DNA from: Terriglobus sp. TAA 43
GTDB taxonomy: Bacteria > Acidobacteriota > Terriglobia > Terriglobales > Acidobacteriaceae
NCBI RefSeq assembly: GCF_000800015.1
Contig: NZ_JUGR01000001.1
Coordinates: 3,410,001-3,474,000 of the forward strand
Direction: 5' to 3'
DNA length: 64,000 nucleotides
A program made the translations under genes and the position numbers. The notes beneath the pieces were generated by a model. It made no database searches. It worked only from the letters and a program-made list of their open reading frames with translations, and had not been told where the DNA came from. Numbering within the stretch: the first letter of the stretch is position 1; every line of letters begins with the position of its first letter. This document shows, piece by piece, positions 56,714 through 64,000 of the stretch.

Positions 56714-59308
56714 ATGGACCTCCCGCAGGCGTCTCCTGCGAACCCCGGAAATTCTGATCCCTCCTCGAGCGACTCCGGTCGCAACTTGGAGGCGGCTGTA
56801 CCTGCGCTCACACCGCTCTCCCCGCAGGACTCCCATCGCCGGGGACAAACCCTTCCAGTAGCCAACGGCATCGAAGCCATGCTGGAAATGGACAACACCG
56901 CAAACCTCGCCGAGCCCGAAGGCTCACTGACGTCCGCAGAGATCACACCCGCGCCGCAGCCCTCCGGCAACCCGCGATCCGCGCAATACCTCCCCGGCTT
57001 CCCCGCAGCGTTAACCACGAAGATCGACGCCGACTTCGAAACCCTGCTCGAAACCGTCCACGCCGCGCGCCCCGCCGACGACCTCGAAATCATCCGCAAC
57101 GCCTGGCTCTTCTGCCTCTCGCAACACGAAGGCCAGAAGCGCGCCAGCGGCGAACCCTACGTCATCCATCCGCTCGAAGTCGGCCAGGTCCTCGCCGAAA
57201 TGAAGATGGACAGCACCGCCATCGCCGCCGGCCTCCTCCACGACGCCGTCGAAGACACCGACGTCTCCTCCCCGGAGATCTCCCGTCGCTTCGGCCCGCA
57301 GGTCGCGCACATCGTCGAAGGCGTCACCAAGCTCGACCGCATCAAGTTCGCCAACAAGGAAGACCACCAGGCCGAAAACATCCGCAAGATGCTCCTCGCC
57401 ATGGTCAGCGACATCCGCGTCGTCCTCATCAAAATGGCGGACCGTCTGCACAACATGCGCACCCTCGCGCACCTCAAGCCTGAGAAGCAGACGCGCATCG
57501 CCAAAGAGACCCTCGAAATCTACGCGCCACTCGCCCATCGCCTCGGCATGGGTAAGCTCCGCGGCGAATTCGAAGACCTCGCCTTCCAGTACGTCGACCC
57601 CGAACGCTACCTCCAGCTCGCGCAAGACGTCGAACTCCTCCGCAACCGCGGCGGGTCAGAGTTCCTCAGCACCATCGCAGACCGCCTCAACCTCGAACTC
57701 ACCCGCCACGGGCTCCCCGGCCGCGTCGAGTTCCGCATCAAGCGCCTCTACTCCATCAACTCCAAGCTGCAGGCGCATGCGTCCGAAGGCGGCTCGCCCG
57801 AACTCAGCTCCGTCCACGACCTCTTCGCCGTCCGCGTCATCACGCAAACCGTGCAGGACTGCTACGCGATCCTCGGCCTCCTCCACAGCATCTGGCGTCC
57901 CGTCCCCGGCCGTATCAAGGACTTCATCGCCATGCCGCGCCCCAACCTCTACCAGTCGTTGCACACCACGCTCGTAGGCGAAGGCGGCTACCAGTTTGAA
58001 GTCCAGATCCGTACTGAGGAGATGCACCGCATCGCCGAAGACGGCATCGCCGCGCACTGGAAGTACAAGGCCAACGAAACCGTCAACGCCAAGGACGAGC
58101 AACGCCTCGCCTGGGTTCGCCAGCTCATGGAATGGCAGAAGGAGATGACCGACCCCAACGAGTTCATGTCGACCCTCAAGATCGACCTGTACCCCGAAGA
58201 GGTCTACACCTTCACCCCCAAGGGCAAAGTCGTCGTCCTGCCCAAAGACGCCACACCCATTGACTTCGCATACACCATCCACACCGAAGTCGGACACACC
58301 ACCACCGGCGCAAAGGTCAACGGACGCATCGTGCCCCTGCGCCACCGCCTCCGCAACGGCGACATCGTTGAAATCACCACGCAGACCGGCCACACGCCCT
58401 CGCGCGACTGGCTCAGCTTCGTTAAGTCCTCACGTGCCCGCAATAAGATCAAGCACTGGCTCAATGAGCATCAGCGCGAACGCGCCATTGAGATCGGTCG
58501 TAAGTTACTTGAACGTGAAGCCCGTAAGTTCAAAGTAAGTCTGCATAAGTTATCTGACGACGATTACACTCGCGCCGCCAATGACTATGGTCTCGGCAAT
58601 GCCTCTGACTTACTCGGAGCCATCGGCTTCGGTAAGTACTCCGCACGACAAACGCTCAATAAGTTAGTCCCCGGCAGCACCACCGGCCACAATGCCGAAG
58701 GGCAGGGCACAGAATCATCGCAGCCCGGCTCCGTAGGCGCGGCCATCAATGCGGGCAGTCTCTCCGCCGTACCGCCGTCAGAACTTAGCAAGATGTCTGA
58801 CGCCATCAAGCGCGTCTACTTCGGCAAAGGTTCTGACTCACTCCAGGTCGAAGGCCAGAACGACTTACTCGTCTACCGCGCCCGCTGTTGTAACCCCATC
58901 CGCGGTGAAGAAATCGTGGGCTACGTTACAAGAGGCAAAGGCGTCGCCGTCCACGCCCGTAGCTGTCCCAACGTGCAAAACCTTCTCTACGAGAGCGACC
59001 GCCGCATCAACGTCGAATGGGCTCCTGACGCGCCCAGCGCAGCCGGTGGAGCCAAGCCCACCCGCTACCCCGTCCGCCTCATCATCACCTGCGACGACCG
59101 CAGCGGCATGCTGAAAGAGCTAACGGCCATCATCTCCGACGACGACACTAACATCCGCAGCGTCGACAGCCGAGCCAACGACGACGGCACCACAGCCACA
59201 GTAGAGTTCGTAGTAGAAACCCTCGACCTACGCCACCTGAACAAACTCACCGTAGACCTGCGAAGAGTCCCAGGCGTACGAGAAGTCCAAAGAGTTTCGA
59301 AAATCTAA
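56714..59308 (+). CDS. relA/spoT: Bifunctional (p)ppGpp synthetase/hydrolase
   Basis: An 864-residue Rel enzyme that makes and degrades (p)ppGpp in the stringent response. An extra about 100-residue low-complexity N-terminus precedes the HD hydrolase domain: YVIHPLEVGQVLAEM, LLHDAVEDTDV (HDxxED intact), and KMADRLHNMRTL. The synthetase has ...VHDLFAVRVITQTV..., and the TGS domain has VYTFTPKGKVVVLPKDATPIDFAYTIHTEVGH. ZBD/CC CCNPIRGEEIVGYVTRGKGVAVHARSCPN and an ACT domain close it. The stop overlaps the convergent AlbA_2 gene. Rare TTA Leu codons cluster between TGS and ZBD. Confidence 0.96.
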   Translation: MDLPQASPANPGNSDPSSSDSGRNLEAAVPALTPLSPQDSHRRGQTLPVANGIEAMLEMDNTANLAEPEGSLTSAEITPAPQPSGNPRSAQYLPGFPAALTTKIDADFETLLETVHAARPADDLEIIRNAWLFCLSQHEGQKRASGEPYVIHPLEVGQVLAEMKMDSTAIAAGLLHDAVEDTDVSSPEISRRFGPQVAHIVEGVTKLDRIKFANKEDHQAENIRKMLLAMVSDIRVVLIKMADRLHNMRTLAHLKPEKQTRIAKETLEIYAPLAHRLGMGKLRGEFEDLAFQYVDPERYLQLAQDVELLRNRGGSEFLSTIADRLNLELTRHGLPGRVEFRIKRLYSINSKLQAHASEGGSPELSSVHDLFAVRVITQTVQDCYAILGLLHSIWRPVPGRIKDFIAMPRPNLYQSLHTTLVGEGGYQFEVQIRTEEMHRIAEDGIAAHWKYKANETVNAKDEQRLAWVRQLMEWQKEMTDPNEFMSTLKIDLYPEEVYTFTPKGKVVVLPKDATPIDFAYTIHTEVGHTTTGAKVNGRIVPLRHRLRNGDIVEITTQTGHTPSRDWLSFVKSSRARNKIKHWLNEHQRERAIEIGRKLLEREARKFKVSLHKLSDDDYTRAANDYGLGNASDLLGAIGFGKYSARQTLNKLVPGSTTGHNAEGQGTESSQPGSVGAAINAGSLSAVPPSELSKMSDAIKRVYFGKGSDSLQVEGQNDLLVYRARCCNPIRGEEIVGYVTRGKGVAVHARSCPNVQNLLYESDRRINVEWAPDAPSAAGGAKPTRYPVRLIITCDDRSGMLKELTAIISDDDTNIRSVDSRANDDGTTATVEFVVETLDLRHLNKLTVDLRRVPGVREVQRVSKI

Positions 59309-60423
59309 CGCCATCCATCAAATAGATCTAAGAGTTGATCAAGCGGGGTTTCGACTTTTTCTCCTGTGAAATTCACGGTAAATTTCTGTTGTTGTGGGCT
59401 CATTAAGTTATCGGCAGCCACCGCGACACTAAATTCAAAAGTCTTGGAGACGCAGCACGCGAAGAATATAGGCTCTTTACTGAACTCCGTAACTCCTGGC
59501 TGAATCGAACCCATTTTTATCTTTACATCAAAAAAGTCTCCTCTCTTCTGAACTTCGACCCCATTTCGATCAGAGAATCTGAGCACTTTCGCAACCAAGT
59601 TACGCCTCGTTGAAGGCTTTTTCCCTATATCATCTGCGCAACGTAATTCGATCTCGGAACTTGAGACTTTCATTCGCAAGATAACGTTATGAGCGATTTT
59701 TCCAGACACATTTGCAACCGAAAAGCCGACAGGCTTAAAGAGTTGGGAGTCAAAAAGATAATCGCGTGCATCTCGATAGAACTCCTCATTGTCGTAAGCA
59801 CCTACGATTGTTCCACTCGAATACGTGGGAACCTTCTCTCCTTCTTTTATGGCTATTTCGCGGCACGTCAGCGATACGCTGTAGCCGATTTCGTTATGAG
59901 TAGCTATATCGGCGAATTGCAAAGACAGTTGTGGCTGAGTCTCGGCAGCTAAGAGGGACTGCGCCATCTTCACCACTTCATCCGGAGCTGCGATAGCGTT
60001 TGTATCGCCCCTACGCACGTAGACGGCATAAGACTTTACTTGCCCGAAGTCATTCATCGCATACACCGGTCTCTGTTGGACTGGTATCGCAATTACTCCC
60101 ACAACTTTTTCCTGATAAACGATTTCCTCATACGAAAAGTGCAGTGGGCGATTTGTTTTGGAGTTAACAAACTGTTGCAAATTTCGCCCTAGATTGCCCC
60201 CTGGTATCCCGTGAACAACACGAGGAGCTGCCTTCTTGTCATCTATACCTAAGACCAGATAAGCGGTGGTCTCGCGCCAAGAATTGGCCAAAGCCAACAT
60301 GTCTTTGAGCAGGTCTTGTTTTTTCTCAGAATTTTTCAGCGAAAGCTGGTAATCGTCCCTCTTGAAATCCAATGATTCTGACTCGTCTTTATACAAGAGG
60401 GACTCGAAAAGGTTCAGGTCCAT
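59305..60423 (-). CDS. AlbA_2 (Schlafen-like) domain protein, putative second gene of an accessory module
   Basis: A 372-residue protein. Residues about 12-135 match the AlbA_2/Schlafen 'divergent AAA_4' domain: ESESLDFKRDDY (acidic E14/E16/D19 and K21), DLLKDMLALANSW, AYLVLGIDDKK, GNLGRNLQQFVNSKTNRPL and GVIAIP then YVRRGDTNAIA. The C-terminal about 200 residues are unassigned (beta-rich, HNVILRMKVSSSEIELRC...). In bacteria AlbA_2 proteins sit in regulators and in several anti-phage systems, some as nucleases. The ATG follows the stop of the 592-residue gene by two bases. The segment is visibly AT-richer than its neighbours. Confidence 0.85.
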   Translation of the reverse strand: MDLNLFESLLYKDESESLDFKRDDYQLSLKNSEKKQDLLKDMLALANSWRETTAYLVLGIDDKKAAPRVVHGIPGGNLGRNLQQFVNSKTNRPLHFSYEEIVYQEKVVGVIAIPVQQRPVYAMNDFGQVKSYAVYVRRGDTNAIAAPDEVVKMAQSLLAAETQPQLSLQFADIATHNEIGYSVSLTCREIAIKEGEKVPTYSSGTIVGAYDNEEFYRDARDYLFDSQLFKPVGFSVANVSGKIAHNVILRMKVSSSEIELRCADDIGKKPSTRRNLVAKVLRFSDRNGVEVQKRGDFFDVKIKMGSIQPGVTEFSKEPIFFACCVSKTFEFSVAVAADNLMSPQQQKFTVNFTGEKVETPLDQLLDLFDGWR

Positions 60424-60425
60424 AT

Positions 60426-62204
60426 TTAGCCTTCAATCTCGCCAGCTTCGGGGCCAGACTCACTCTTTGTATCCAACACGTCCGCGATTCTATTCAAAGT
60501 ATTTACGAAGGCTCCCAGCATTTGCTTACCCTGCCGGACGAAGGGCCAACGTTTTTCGATTCGCAAGTTCTTAAAGGCATCTTCAAGATCGGCACTATGC
60601 AGGTGGGCGTCTGCTAACCGCAGGTCATAAACCGCAAAGAGCGGGCTCATTAATTTGTATGCGGCTTCAGGTCCGATCCGAGACGCCAATACCTTCTCCA
60701 AGGACTTAAGAGAACCCCACTTCTCTACTTTGGGTGGCGCAACCACTTTATTCATCGATGAGGCGTCAAAGCTATCAGCCGTCAGCCTTGCTAAATCTTT
60801 CGCCAGGCTAAATAGGCCGTTTTCGGTTGTCGCCCTGAAGCGATGCGTTTGCTTTAGTAGATTTTCAACATCGCGATGAGATCTCACGAATTCAACCCCA
60901 AAGCTATCTTTGGATGCTCGATTGATGAGGGTCAGTCCTTTTTGAAGAAAGGCTTCTGGGGCGTGAGTTGATGCAGGTTCGCCAATGGCTTGAGACATCA
61001 TTAATTCTTTTGAGACCTTCCCATCGGGCATCACATTGAAGCCTGCCCAAATTTGCTGCTCCCAATTAGGTTGGTATCGCAAATCTTTGGCGTAGACATT
61101 CACAAGTCCGAGTTCGTTGATCCCAAAAACCAATCGCCCGTTCGGTCCTATCACTTGACCGGTATCTGCTGTGAACCAGTCGAGACTCATTCCACGAAAT
61201 TCAAGCATTTTATTGATGACGTCGGGGTTAAACCAAAGCCAACGCCCCTTGCGGTCGAGGTCATCGACACTTTCACGAGTCTCAGAAGCATCCGTATAGA
61301 AAAAGATGGTTGAAGATAAATCATCGCCTCGTACTCTGGGGCTGCTCTTGCCTGCCTCTACGAAGTCAACTTTCCAGAGCTCACCCCATACCCTGAAACG
61401 CTTCGCTCCTCCCCCCAAGGCTCGGGTGTATTTCCGACTTTCCATCTCATCACTAATCCCGATCTCCGGAACATCCTGATTGATGTCGTAGTTCTTACGT
61501 CCAACGTGAAACACTGCCATTTTGGCCTCAAACTCATATCCATCCTCATTGATGGCTGTGATCGTGCCTCGCCATTTTCCCTTTTTCCCCACTTCCTCGT
61601 CAGATGTGGGCCAGCCGAATCCGGGATCGGTTTCACTGATTTCCATGCGGCCCTTCCAGCTCGAGACGGCCAGAAATTCGCCTCGTGCGGCAAGGAAATC
61701 TTTCAGGTGACTAGCTCGGATCTCGACGAAATTGGCATTTCCAGCATCGTCTCTCGTGAGCCGCATGACAGGGGTATAACCTTCATCGATTGAAAGCCAA
61801 AGATCACCTTCACGTTTGAGACGAAGCCCCATGATCAAGTCGGGATGGACGTACCAGTCACCACTTTCAATCGAGTTCCCACGAGGAACCATGACCAGAT
61901 TGGTACCTTTGAGATCGCCACTAAGAAACTCGTCAGAAGGGTGATACTCGTCGTCTTGGACATACGGCCCGTGATCGCGCGTCAGGCTCAAGTTTCCCCA
62001 GTTGATCTTCTCTTCAGCCATCTCTCTATCTGCATGCTTGAAGGAGGCAGTCGCGATGGCGATGTCTTCCTCTATGTGCCCAACTACTGCGTTCAGCAAC
62101 CCATCCTTATTGCTGATATTTGCCCGAAGAGGAATCCAAACATCCCGATCAATAGTTTTGGTCTTCAAATCCGAAAATTCGAACCATTCTTTTGCGTTTT
62201 TCAT
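60426..62204 (-). CDS. 592-residue protein of unknown function, first gene of the accessory module
   Basis: No known family was recognised. The N-terminal half is beta-rich with charged patches (WFEFSDLKTKTIDRDVWIPLR; MVPRGNSIESGDWYVHPDLIMGLRLKREGDLWLSIDEGY). The C-terminal about 180 residues are helical; within them VYDLRLADAHLHSADLEDAFKNL contains R529-x4-H534, a HEPN-like RxxxxH motif, although the residue after Arg is Leu rather than the usual polar one. GAGG lies a few bases before the ATG. Codon use and base composition differ from the flanking core genes, which points to transfer. Confidence 0.75.
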   Translation of the reverse strand: MKNAKEWFEFSDLKTKTIDRDVWIPLRANISNKDGLLNAVVGHIEEDIAIATASFKHADREMAEEKINWGNLSLTRDHGPYVQDDEYHPSDEFLSGDLKGTNLVMVPRGNSIESGDWYVHPDLIMGLRLKREGDLWLSIDEGYTPVMRLTRDDAGNANFVEIRASHLKDFLAARGEFLAVSSWKGRMEISETDPGFGWPTSDEEVGKKGKWRGTITAINEDGYEFEAKMAVFHVGRKNYDINQDVPEIGISDEMESRKYTRALGGGAKRFRVWGELWKVDFVEAGKSSPRVRGDDLSSTIFFYTDASETRESVDDLDRKGRWLWFNPDVINKMLEFRGMSLDWFTADTGQVIGPNGRLVFGINELGLVNVYAKDLRYQPNWEQQIWAGFNVMPDGKVSKELMMSQAIGEPASTHAPEAFLQKGLTLINRASKDSFGVEFVRSHRDVENLLKQTHRFRATTENGLFSLAKDLARLTADSFDASSMNKVVAPPKVEKWGSLKSLEKVLASRIGPEAAYKLMSPLFAVYDLRLADAHLHSADLEDAFKNLRIEKRWPFVRQGKQMLGAFVNTLNRIADVLDTKSESGPEAGEIEG

Positions 62205-62313
62205 CTCACCTCGAAATCTGTCAAGCCCGATTTAGCCGTAAATCATTGAATATTATGGCAAATAAAGTTGGCATGGTATTTCCCCAAACTCACTACAATA
62301 GAAACAGGACAAG

Positions 62314-62380
62314 AAAGGGCCGCGCATCGCGCGGCCCTAACTCGTTTAGAAAGACGATTTTGCCCCTAACCCCAATGGGT
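62314..62380 (+). repeat. Intergenic repeat element, copy 1
   Basis: Starts with perfect palindrome GGGCCGCGC-ATC-GCGCGGCCC (62317-62337), then ACTCGTTTAGAAAGACGATT and CCTAACCCCAATGGG. Copy 2 at 63756-63820 has the same order with a few substitutions. Confidence 0.8.
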
Positions 62381-62433
62381 AGACGATTTTAGCGACACCG
62401 TCGCCGTAACCCCAATAGAAAGAAGATTTTAGA
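62352..62433 (+). repeat. Short iterations of the AGACGATTTT / TAACCCCAAT unit
   Basis: AGACGATTTT occurs at 62352 and 62381 and as AGAAGATTTT at 62421. TAACCCCAAT follows the first two at 62367 and 62407. The pattern looks like tandem, imperfect repetition of one half of the element. Confidence 0.6.
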
Positions 62434-62514
62434 AAAACAGGGGGGAGGGGGTACCCCCACACCACCAAGGGCCAGCCGCCAAGGCTGGCCTTCACCATTT
62501 CAAGGAGAAAACAC

Positions 62515-62982
62515 ATGCAATACGGACTTTGCCGCCACATCCGCTCCAACGGAGACCAATGCCAATCGCCCCGACTCCTCAAAGCCGACTTCTGCTACTT
62601 CCACAACCGCCTTCACCAGCAGCATCGCAGCGCCATCGCACCACAGCGCAGCACAGAAGTCATGCTTCCCGTCCTCGACAAGTCCGGCACGCTCGTCGGC
62701 ATGGAACCGGCGCCCAGCCAGATACTCGACCTCGGCCCGCTGGAAGACCGCACCTCCGTCCAGATGGCCATCTCCACCGTACTCAACGCCTTAGCCGCAG
62801 GCCGCCTGGAACAGTCCCGAGCTACCGCGCTCCTCTACGGCCTCCAGCTAGCCAGCACCAACTGCATAGCCCGCCGCTTCGACCACAGCCACGCCGTCCA
62901 ACCCGTCCACGACGTGGAGATCACCCCGGAAGGCACCACCCTGGCCCCGGAACCCACCGCACGCCAAAGCCGCCGAACATAA
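62515..62982 (+). CDS. Small Cys/His-motif protein of unknown function
   Basis: A 155-residue protein. CRHIRSNGDQCQSP plus KADFCYFHNR gives C6-x9-C16-x10-C27-xx-H30, a likely zinc-binding knuckle. Residues about 85-125 (SVQMAISTVLNALAAGRLEQSRATALLYGLQLAS) form a conserved-looking amphipathic helical pair. The same architecture recurs in many acidobacterial orphan genes as I recall it; the function is not known. AAGGAG lies seven bases before ATG. Confidence 0.75.
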   Translation: MQYGLCRHIRSNGDQCQSPRLLKADFCYFHNRLHQQHRSAIAPQRSTEVMLPVLDKSGTLVGMEPAPSQILDLGPLEDRTSVQMAISTVLNALAAGRLEQSRATALLYGLQLASTNCIARRFDHSHAVQPVHDVEITPEGTTLAPEPTARQSRRT

Positions 62983-63017
62983 TACGGCAAAATCGGCATA
63001 TTTCCACAGAAAGGACT

Positions 63018-63521
63018 ATGCTGAAGAGAGCACACCTTCTCGCCTCTAGTCCTCTCCGGACTTTACCTCTAGACGAGCGCACTTCCGCAAGTCAGCCGTC
63101 TGGAGTCGAGATGACTACCTACCAAACCAAAGATGTCGTGTATTACGGCCTCCTGCAACCTGCACCAAAGCGTGCCTGGGCGACAGAAGCACCTGTCGGC
63201 CTTGAGCTTTGTCGCCATCCGCAGCAGCCGCCTCGCTATTCCATCCTTTCGCAGAGCCGTGAGGAACTGGACAATCCGGAGAACACCCCCGCGATCAGCA
63301 TGTGGCCTTACCTGATTGCCTCTGACCAAACGAAGCGGCTCAACGAGATCAGTATCTACTCCGAGAAAGGCACCACCTCGGACAAACTACGTTTCCTCTA
63401 CCTGAACGACTTCGCCCTCTCCATCTGGGATGAGATGAACAAGCACATTCAGGTGATGGGCCGCCTCCACCGCCCCCCACGGTGCGCCGTACTCTCCTTC
63501 GGCATGCCTTTCTCAGACTAG
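63018..63521 (+). CDS. Orphan hypothetical protein
   Basis: 167 residues from ATG 63018 (AAAGGA just upstream); ATG at 63111 (137 residues, MTTYQTKDVVYYG) is an alternative start. The C-terminal part (KLRFLYLNDFALSIWDEMNKHIQVMGRL) looks like real protein, but no family is recognised. The in-frame extension upstream of 63018 runs through the previous gene and is not real. Confidence 0.55.
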   Translation: MLKRAHLLASSPLRTLPLDERTSASQPSGVEMTTYQTKDVVYYGLLQPAPKRAWATEAPVGLELCRHPQQPPRYSILSQSREELDNPENTPAISMWPYLIASDQTKRLNEISIYSEKGTTSDKLRFLYLNDFALSIWDEMNKHIQVMGRLHRPPRCAVLSFGMPFSD

Positions 63522-63570
63522 GCAATTCCTTCAACCAGCCAACAACGTTCAAAACGAAAGGGAGTTCATC

Positions 63571-63729
63571 ATGACTCTGGATCAAGCAAAGACCGCCCTC
63601 GCAACCGAGCAGGACGCATGGAATCAAGTCGTGAAACAGCCCAACACGCTCGAACGCAACATCGTTCTGGCCGCACATCGTGGTGAAATCGGCAGGTTGG
63701 AGAAGCTCATCTCCAAGACCAAGCAGTAA
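63571..63729 (+). CDS. 52-residue hypothetical protein
   Basis: MTLDQAKTALATEQDAWNQ... RLEKLISKTKQ: a small, charged, all-helical protein. AAAGGGAG lies upstream of ATG 63571 and a strong hairpin follows 27 bases after the stop. No family is recognised. Confidence 0.6.
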   Translation: MTLDQAKTALATEQDAWNQVVKQPNTLERNIVLAAHRGEIGRLEKLISKTKQ

Positions 63730-63755
63730 TCGGGTTGGCTTCGTAACACTGCAGT

Positions 63756-63820
63756 AAAGGCCGCGCATCGCGCGGCCTTTACTCGTCCAGGAAGACGGAT
63801 TGTGTCCTAACCCCAAAGGG
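63756..63820 (+). repeat. Intergenic repeat element, copy 2
   Basis: Palindrome AAAGGCCGCGC-ATC-GCGCGGCCTTT (63756-63780), then ACTCGTCCAGGAAGACGGATT and CCTAACCCCAAAGGG. Direct repeat of copy 1; the pair brackets three small genes. The stem followed by T could also end the 52-residue gene. Confidence 0.8.
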
Positions 63821-63850
63821 CATCAAGGCAGAGAAGCCTATACTCTCTTC

Positions 63851-64000
63851 GTGCGTCCCCTTAGCCTCCTACTCCTCTCAAGCTGTCTGCTCTGCTGTGC
63901 CTCTCTGCGTGCACAGGTGCGTGTCATCAACGACGGATTCCCAGGTGAAAGCACTGCGGAACTCGACGCGCGCATCGACAACGCCTTGCATGAGTTCCAT
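63851..64000 (+). CDS. Secreted SGNH-type hydrolase (3' end missing)
   Basis: GTG start at 63851, open to the window edge. Residues 1-22 form a signal peptide (PLSLLLLSSCLLCCASLRAQ), and the next residues VRVINDGFPGESTAELDARIDNAL match the block II region of secreted GDSL/SGNH proteins (vvN.G.pG.tt.e...rld). The catalytic blocks lie partly outside the window, so the call rests on this stretch. Confidence 0.6.
   Translation, partial: MRPLSLLLLSSCLLCCASLRAQVRVINDGFPGESTAELDARIDNALHEFH

Follow-up and report, generated by a model that had tools for sequence, protein, structure and literature searches.

The window analysed here, the whole 64,000-nucleotide stretch of Terriglobus sp. TAA 43 DNA, encodes next to relA a 592-aa protein which, judged from alignments and a predicted structure, is rather probably a self-contained anti-phage effector, i.e. 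an HEPN-type RNase with its own sensor that is exchanged as a single cargo gene. Its gene shares an inserted cassette with the gene for a 372-aa AlbA_2 (Schlafen-type) protein, and this pairing is a local, perhaps functional, union of two mobile genes that otherwise occur independently.

Both ORFs are on the minus strand, the 592-aa gene at 60426-62204 and the AlbA_2 gene at 59305-60423, and they are separated by two bases (60424-60425). The left border of the cassette is the stop of a relA-type core gene (56714-59308, plus strand; HD, RelA_SpoT, TGS, and ACT domains), whose end at 59308 converges with the stop end of the AlbA_2 gene so that the two share 4 bases. The relA DNA is 95% and 91% identical in two same-genus relatives, G225 and G179, respectively, and homology with them reaches the end of relA and resumes at base 62258 of the window, thus placing the inserted piece at about 59309-62257. 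The conserved right flank (62258-64000) is 94% identical to G225 and 83% identical to G179, whose match stops at 63733, and in both relatives the cassette is missing at the same place. The two genes are the only cargo, and neither is a chance ORF as homologues exist for both. GC content is 45.7% for the AlbA_2 gene and 49.5% for the 592-aa gene, compared to 61.6% for relA and 57.6% for the window, and with 47.9% GC the cassette lies below all 245 sliding 2.95-kb segments taken in 250-base steps, the segments at the minimum of 48.1% themselves overlapping the cassette. ORFs, coordinates and GC content thus agree with the preliminary description of an AT-rich pair of same-strand genes with a two-base gap lying against relA. 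No sigma-70-like site was found in a promoter scan. Right of the cassette border there is a 10-pair inverted repeat (62316-62338) that is terminator-like on the minus strand and partly visible in the flanks of G225 and G179.

We compared the region after relA in 12 other members of the genus, scanning the proteins in five and judging the other seven by eye. In G225, the flanks of which are 94-95% identical to those of the window, the slot carries AriA (E 2.7e-22) and AriB (E 2e-10), a PARIS-like pair with 49% GC, and in G179 it carries a Y1 transposase and a DUF2314 gene. G398 has the PADLOC candidate PDC-S06 (ATPase), split over two ORFs, and G402 a weak match to the PADLOC candidate PDC-S33 (E 8e-4) on a RelA_SpoT-domain protein near a GHKL ATPase. 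Several of the seven slots judged by eye look ordinary, two of them with ABC transporter genes, and two stop at a contig edge. Thus, the slot after relA is variable and sometimes, not always, defensive, which makes it a place to seek further systems in the genus. Other slot contents seen among these loci (L108-L119) include a pentapeptide protein and, by eye, a DUF4238-like protein. In the slot of G402 the 3' end of relA is moreover repeated (L111:4312-4570; 73% to the window over 261 columns), which resembles an integration scar at the relA end. The PARIS-like pair swapped into the slot supports the view that the cassette is mobile and defence-linked, as do the restriction-modification (R-M), Gabija-like, and prophage surroundings that some relatives have (see below).

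We searched all ORFs of 85 loci with a profile for each of the two window families. The 592 family was matched in 67 of them, three being from this genome and four of the other 64 repeating a place. None of these 64 loci contained a window-type AlbA_2 gene and, conversely, the 592 profile matched nothing in the available stretch around any of the 16 other AlbA_2 places; at three of these the sequence stops close to the gene. Among 396 genomes of the phylum only this one has both proteins. With a broader AlbA_2 domain profile, which may miss other AlbA_2 types, one different AlbA_2 gene was detected directly after a 592-family gene, in Sulfurimonas (Pfam E 9.4e-15). The two genes are therefore not kept as neighbours in the way of a described two-gene defence system or toxin-antitoxin module, and comparing their neighbourhoods across genomes, as had been proposed for the preliminary description, found them together only here. 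A conserved coupled pair is thus not supported, and of the horizontally acquired defence pair suggested earlier the mobile, defence-linked cassette stands whereas the conserved coupling does not; since each gene occurs separately, we read the two-gene unit as a local combination.

That the 592-aa and AlbA_2 proteins make up a complex in which one partner senses or restrains its companion is accordingly an unlikely reading. It would fit the two-base gap, the common strand and the fact that both genes fill the cassette, as well as the run of an MmeI-type gene, a 592-family gene, and the different AlbA_2 gene in Sulfurimonas (L044) and a Leptospira plasmid on which a window-type AlbA_2 gene follows an AbiJ_NTD4 gene after 50 bases (L030:5057-7167), but either family has members that lack the other, and several of these lie close to phage genes. 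Even less probable is a toxin-antitoxin pair in which the AlbA_2 protein is the antitoxin or regulator of a 592-aa toxin: gene order and spacing agree with it, and an Argonaute-operon study, in its available text, annotates Schlafen AlbA_2 as DNA-binding (PMC6299218), but all 64 other 592-family loci are without the window-type AlbA_2 gene, and the acidic residues of the AlbA_2 protein discussed below suggest a nuclease. The balance tips slightly towards two defence genes that are independent of each other and came to be stacked in the slot after relA by chance, each family being found elsewhere without the other and the slot being occupied by different genes in same-genus relatives, even though the tight two-base junction suggests co-translation; such stacking is compatible with our preferred reading of the 592-aa protein as an HEPN-type effector.

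The 592 family is widespread, patchy across phyla, and has no model in the four libraries searched: the 592-aa protein gave no match in Pfam, NCBIfam, PHROGs, PADLOC, or PDB sequences at E values up to 1, and no PADLOC 2.0 family matched when 13 members were searched (E up to 0.1). Pipelines using these libraries would therefore call the members hypothetical. Full-length homologues are 28-44% identical. The family is present at 38 genome loci, with best segments of 32-44% identity; a few of these matches are partial or coincide with a locus already found on a plasmid or within the phylum. Among the phyla represented are Pseudomonadota, Bacteroidota, Campylobacterota, Nitrospirota, Calditrichota, Ignavibacteriota, Myxococcota, Chloroflexi, and Acidobacteriota. 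It further occurs on 14 plasmid records (12 with at least 80% query coverage and 31-35% identity, two partial with 22-26%), at 11 viral-contig loci, and in 3 of the 396 genomes of the phylum, one match being partial and the own genome being included. INPHARED phage records contained a match to neither the 592-aa nor the AlbA_2 protein, and a related-locus search with the single 592-aa protein returned nothing in two collections, while alignment searches did find relatives. In a tree of 47 rows several phyla are intermixed and the row of the window sits on a long branch; as an AU test did not reject its grouping with Geothrix of the same phylum (p 0.45), the tree alone is no proof of transfer. 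Copies broken into two or more ORFs at five loci (L059, L069, L071, L074, and L076) suggest decay. A literature search yielded no paper tied to the family, which, with subscription journals thinly covered, is not evidence of its being unpublished.

Several relatives lie within or beside restriction or defence genes. On a Fusobacteria plasmid the family gene is inside a type I R-M operon, between the R gene and the M and S genes. In Sulfurimonas an MmeI-type gene precedes it with a one-base overlap, and an AlbA_2/GHKL gene and a DEAD helicase gene come next, in this order; the same one-base overlap is present in a Helicobacteraceae MAG, where Fic and DEAD helicase genes follow and where the MmeI and DEAD genes were assigned by phmmer only. 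The Aromatoleum gene has an MmeI/Eco57I-like gene on one side and GHKL and SNF2 genes on the other, and on a Pseudomonas plasmid methyltransferase, helicase, and restriction genes are located upstream. In Porphyromonas the family gene starts 20 bases past an OLD/UvrD pair like Gabija, and in Tahibacter a pair with phmmer similarity to that pair is about 3.7 kb away. A SIR2 gene is located downstream of the family gene in Halomonas, DUF4145 neighbours are found in two Deltaproteobacteria MAGs (one just above the cut-off), and in Nostoc DUF499 and DUF1156 genes lie in one island with a distant relative. The neighbours named for the Fusobacteria plasmid, Sulfurimonas, the Helicobacteraceae MAG, Aromatoleum, Porphyromonas, Halomonas, and the Deltaproteobacteria MAGs are encoded on the strand of the family gene. 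Altogether a recognised restriction or defence gene is present in only about 9 of the 64 loci (L007, L010, L012, L042, L044, L046, L058, L060, and L061), a raw count from flanks of unequal length in which part of the neighbours was scanned. Four of the 11 viral-contig loci were picked by eye for scanning, and there the scanned neighbours encode phage late activators, terminases, portal or tail proteins, or integrases. In the Gabija-like operon a 446-aa protein without Pfam match (L058:8367-9707) follows 5 bases past the 592-family gene. Small neighbours with short R-x4-H or RH motifs, recognised by eye, occur at L063:9676-10260, L070:9630-10208, L065:7263-7868, and L032:4725-5372; they are possibly HEPN-like, and the three from L070, L065, and L032 had no Pfam match when scanned.

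The evidence for an effector domain comes from the C-terminal part of the 592-aa protein (codons 405-592; 60429-60992, minus strand). All 37 aligned members share R529 and H534 without exception, and so do all rows of two further alignments (20/20 and 13/13), both of which include relatives of about 20% identity, and in the 20-row alignment they are the sole invariant columns past residue 400. The motif, R-L-A-D-A-H in the window (codons 529-534; 60603-60620, minus strand), thus has the conserved R-x4-6-H spacing that is the signature of HEPN domains. Speaking against an HEPN motif, the residue after R, which is usually polar in known HEPN motifs, varies among L, V, N, H, G and K in the 13 rows. 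The available text of an HEPN review is consistent with the R-x4-6-H signature (PMC3710099).

An AlphaFold2 model based on the 37-row alignment (mean pLDDT 88.2, pTM 0.76) is strand-rich up to about residue 371 and has no strand of at least three residues from 372 to 578, so that in the prediction the motif lies in an all-helical domain. Helices of the C-terminal part comprise residues 416-435, 444-452, 461-474, 481-485, 498-510, 512-533, 537-546, and 555-578, with R529 inside helix 512-533 and H534 directly after it. HEPN models of Pfam matched none of the 37 members at E 0.1, and a Foldseek search of the PDB with the full-length model gave no protein described as HEPN among the best 50 of 652 matches. 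A profile search of PDB sequences yielded only a weak match to an ATP synthase b-delta chain (E 0.035, positions 408-515). Chou-Fasman averages were discarded as uninformative because they did not separate the halves of an ApeA control either. In sum, an HEPN fold of the C-terminal domain is consistent with the data, not proven. The presence of an invariant HEPN-like motif in the large protein itself makes the division of labour proposed in the preliminary description, with the large protein sensing and the AlbA_2 protein acting on nucleic acid, doubtful as well.

The single Foldseek match at E ≤ 0.001 was Avs3 (8dgc chain A, E 9.3e-4, 210 columns), and a second 8dgc chain followed with E 2.4e-3 over 198 columns, these two chains being the only matches under 0.01. 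The protein might thus be akin to part of Avs3 and act as a sensor or scaffold rather than a nuclease, with R529 and H534 serving another purpose, but the TM-score on the query is 0.19 at an rmsd of about 8 and 12% identity, the aligned part is not localised, and the invariant R-x4-H in a helical domain would be left unexplained, rendering this alternative decidedly unlikely. A combination, in which an N-terminal half sharing its fold with part of the phage-terminase sensor Avs3 is joined to a new family of HEPN RNases, would make the protein an undescribed cross-phylum single-protein immune effector that acts by itself when carried by prophages and is plugged, as a second line, into operons of the R-M, Gabija-like, and Schlafen-containing kinds; we regard this more far-reaching version as improbable.

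In the 372-aa protein, SLFN_AlbA_2 (PF04326) scored 52.1 bits against a cut-off of 25.3, identifying it as a member of this family. The AlbA_2 domain spans residues 14-143, the C-terminal part being without Pfam match, and the N-terminal domain also matches the PADLOC candidate PDC-S50. The candidate acidic residues E14, D19, and D41, which may correspond to the SLFN13 triad, are invariant in 8 of 8 AlbA_2 rows together with K21 and K40, and in another 9-row set E14 and D41 are invariant and D19 is not; these candidate residues suggest a nuclease. The AlbA_2 profile further gave a weak match over the domain to the PDB chain CbCash (E 0.032). Homologues are 26-33% identical over most of their length (28-42% in the best segments from viral contigs) and occur in 3 of the 396 genomes of the phylum; many are without an evident partner and some lie near phage genes (by eye). 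According to the available text of a 2026 study, HEPN and Schlafen proteins are the most widely represented endoRNases among auxiliary effectors beside BREX and related systems (PMC12839542), and given this prominence of Schlafens the AlbA_2 protein is probably a Schlafen-type RNase.

In the HEPN-effector reading that we prefer, the strand-rich N-terminal half would act as sensor or regulator of a C-terminal HEPN-type endoribonuclease with R529 and H534, and infection would release the HEPN domain so that RNA cutting halts phage growth. The gene would move between bacteria as a lone cargo gene and would sometimes, as a second line, take a place within operons of R-M or other defence systems. 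Here it may have arrived in, or joined with, the AlbA_2 gene in one cassette at the variable slot after relA, where the AlbA_2 protein would be a probable stand-alone defence nuclease, and two RNase effectors in one cassette would amount to layered suicide. An HEPN effector with a new sensor half would add a testable immune protein and a marker for defence islands.

Both proteins were compared with the closest known systems. A PARIS-like AriA/AriB pair occupies the same chromosomal slot in G225, whereas no family match is common to AriA/AriB and the two proteins of the window. Avs3 resembles the 592-aa protein with a Foldseek probability of 1.00; however, Avs3 has an ATPase and nuclease domain make-up, and the 592-aa protein is without a Pfam ATPase or nuclease domain. 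The 372-aa protein shares PF04326, the PDC-S50 match, candidate acidic residues, and the weak CbCash match with bacterial Schlafens, but has no match to the GHKL/wHTH part of the BREX-associated type. Membership of ApeA (HEPN_Apea PF18739, ApeA-NTD) is not supported by profile for the 592-aa protein, as neither Pfam nor profile-profile comparison (hhalign) gave a signal in either half; the latter has little power because unrelated controls scored the same and a positive control was lacking. The ApeA rows used here are also shorter (about 460-490 aa vs 592 aa), yet ApeA resembles the predicted layout of the 592-aa protein in that its one chain begins with a strand-rich part and ends in an HEPN domain containing R-x4-H, and it is embedded in R-M operons in epsilonproteobacteria, as the available text of the HEPN review states (PMC3710099). 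The 592-aa protein differs from the anticodon nucleases PrrC and RloC in lacking an ABC-ATPase or other Pfam match and in the several R-M partner types of its family. The placement of family members within R-M operons nevertheless recalls PrrC, an HEPN-type second line in such operons which, in the same available text, is restrained by a type I system and freed when a phage disables that system (PMC3710099). By analogy, the 592-aa protein may work like ApeA or PrrC.
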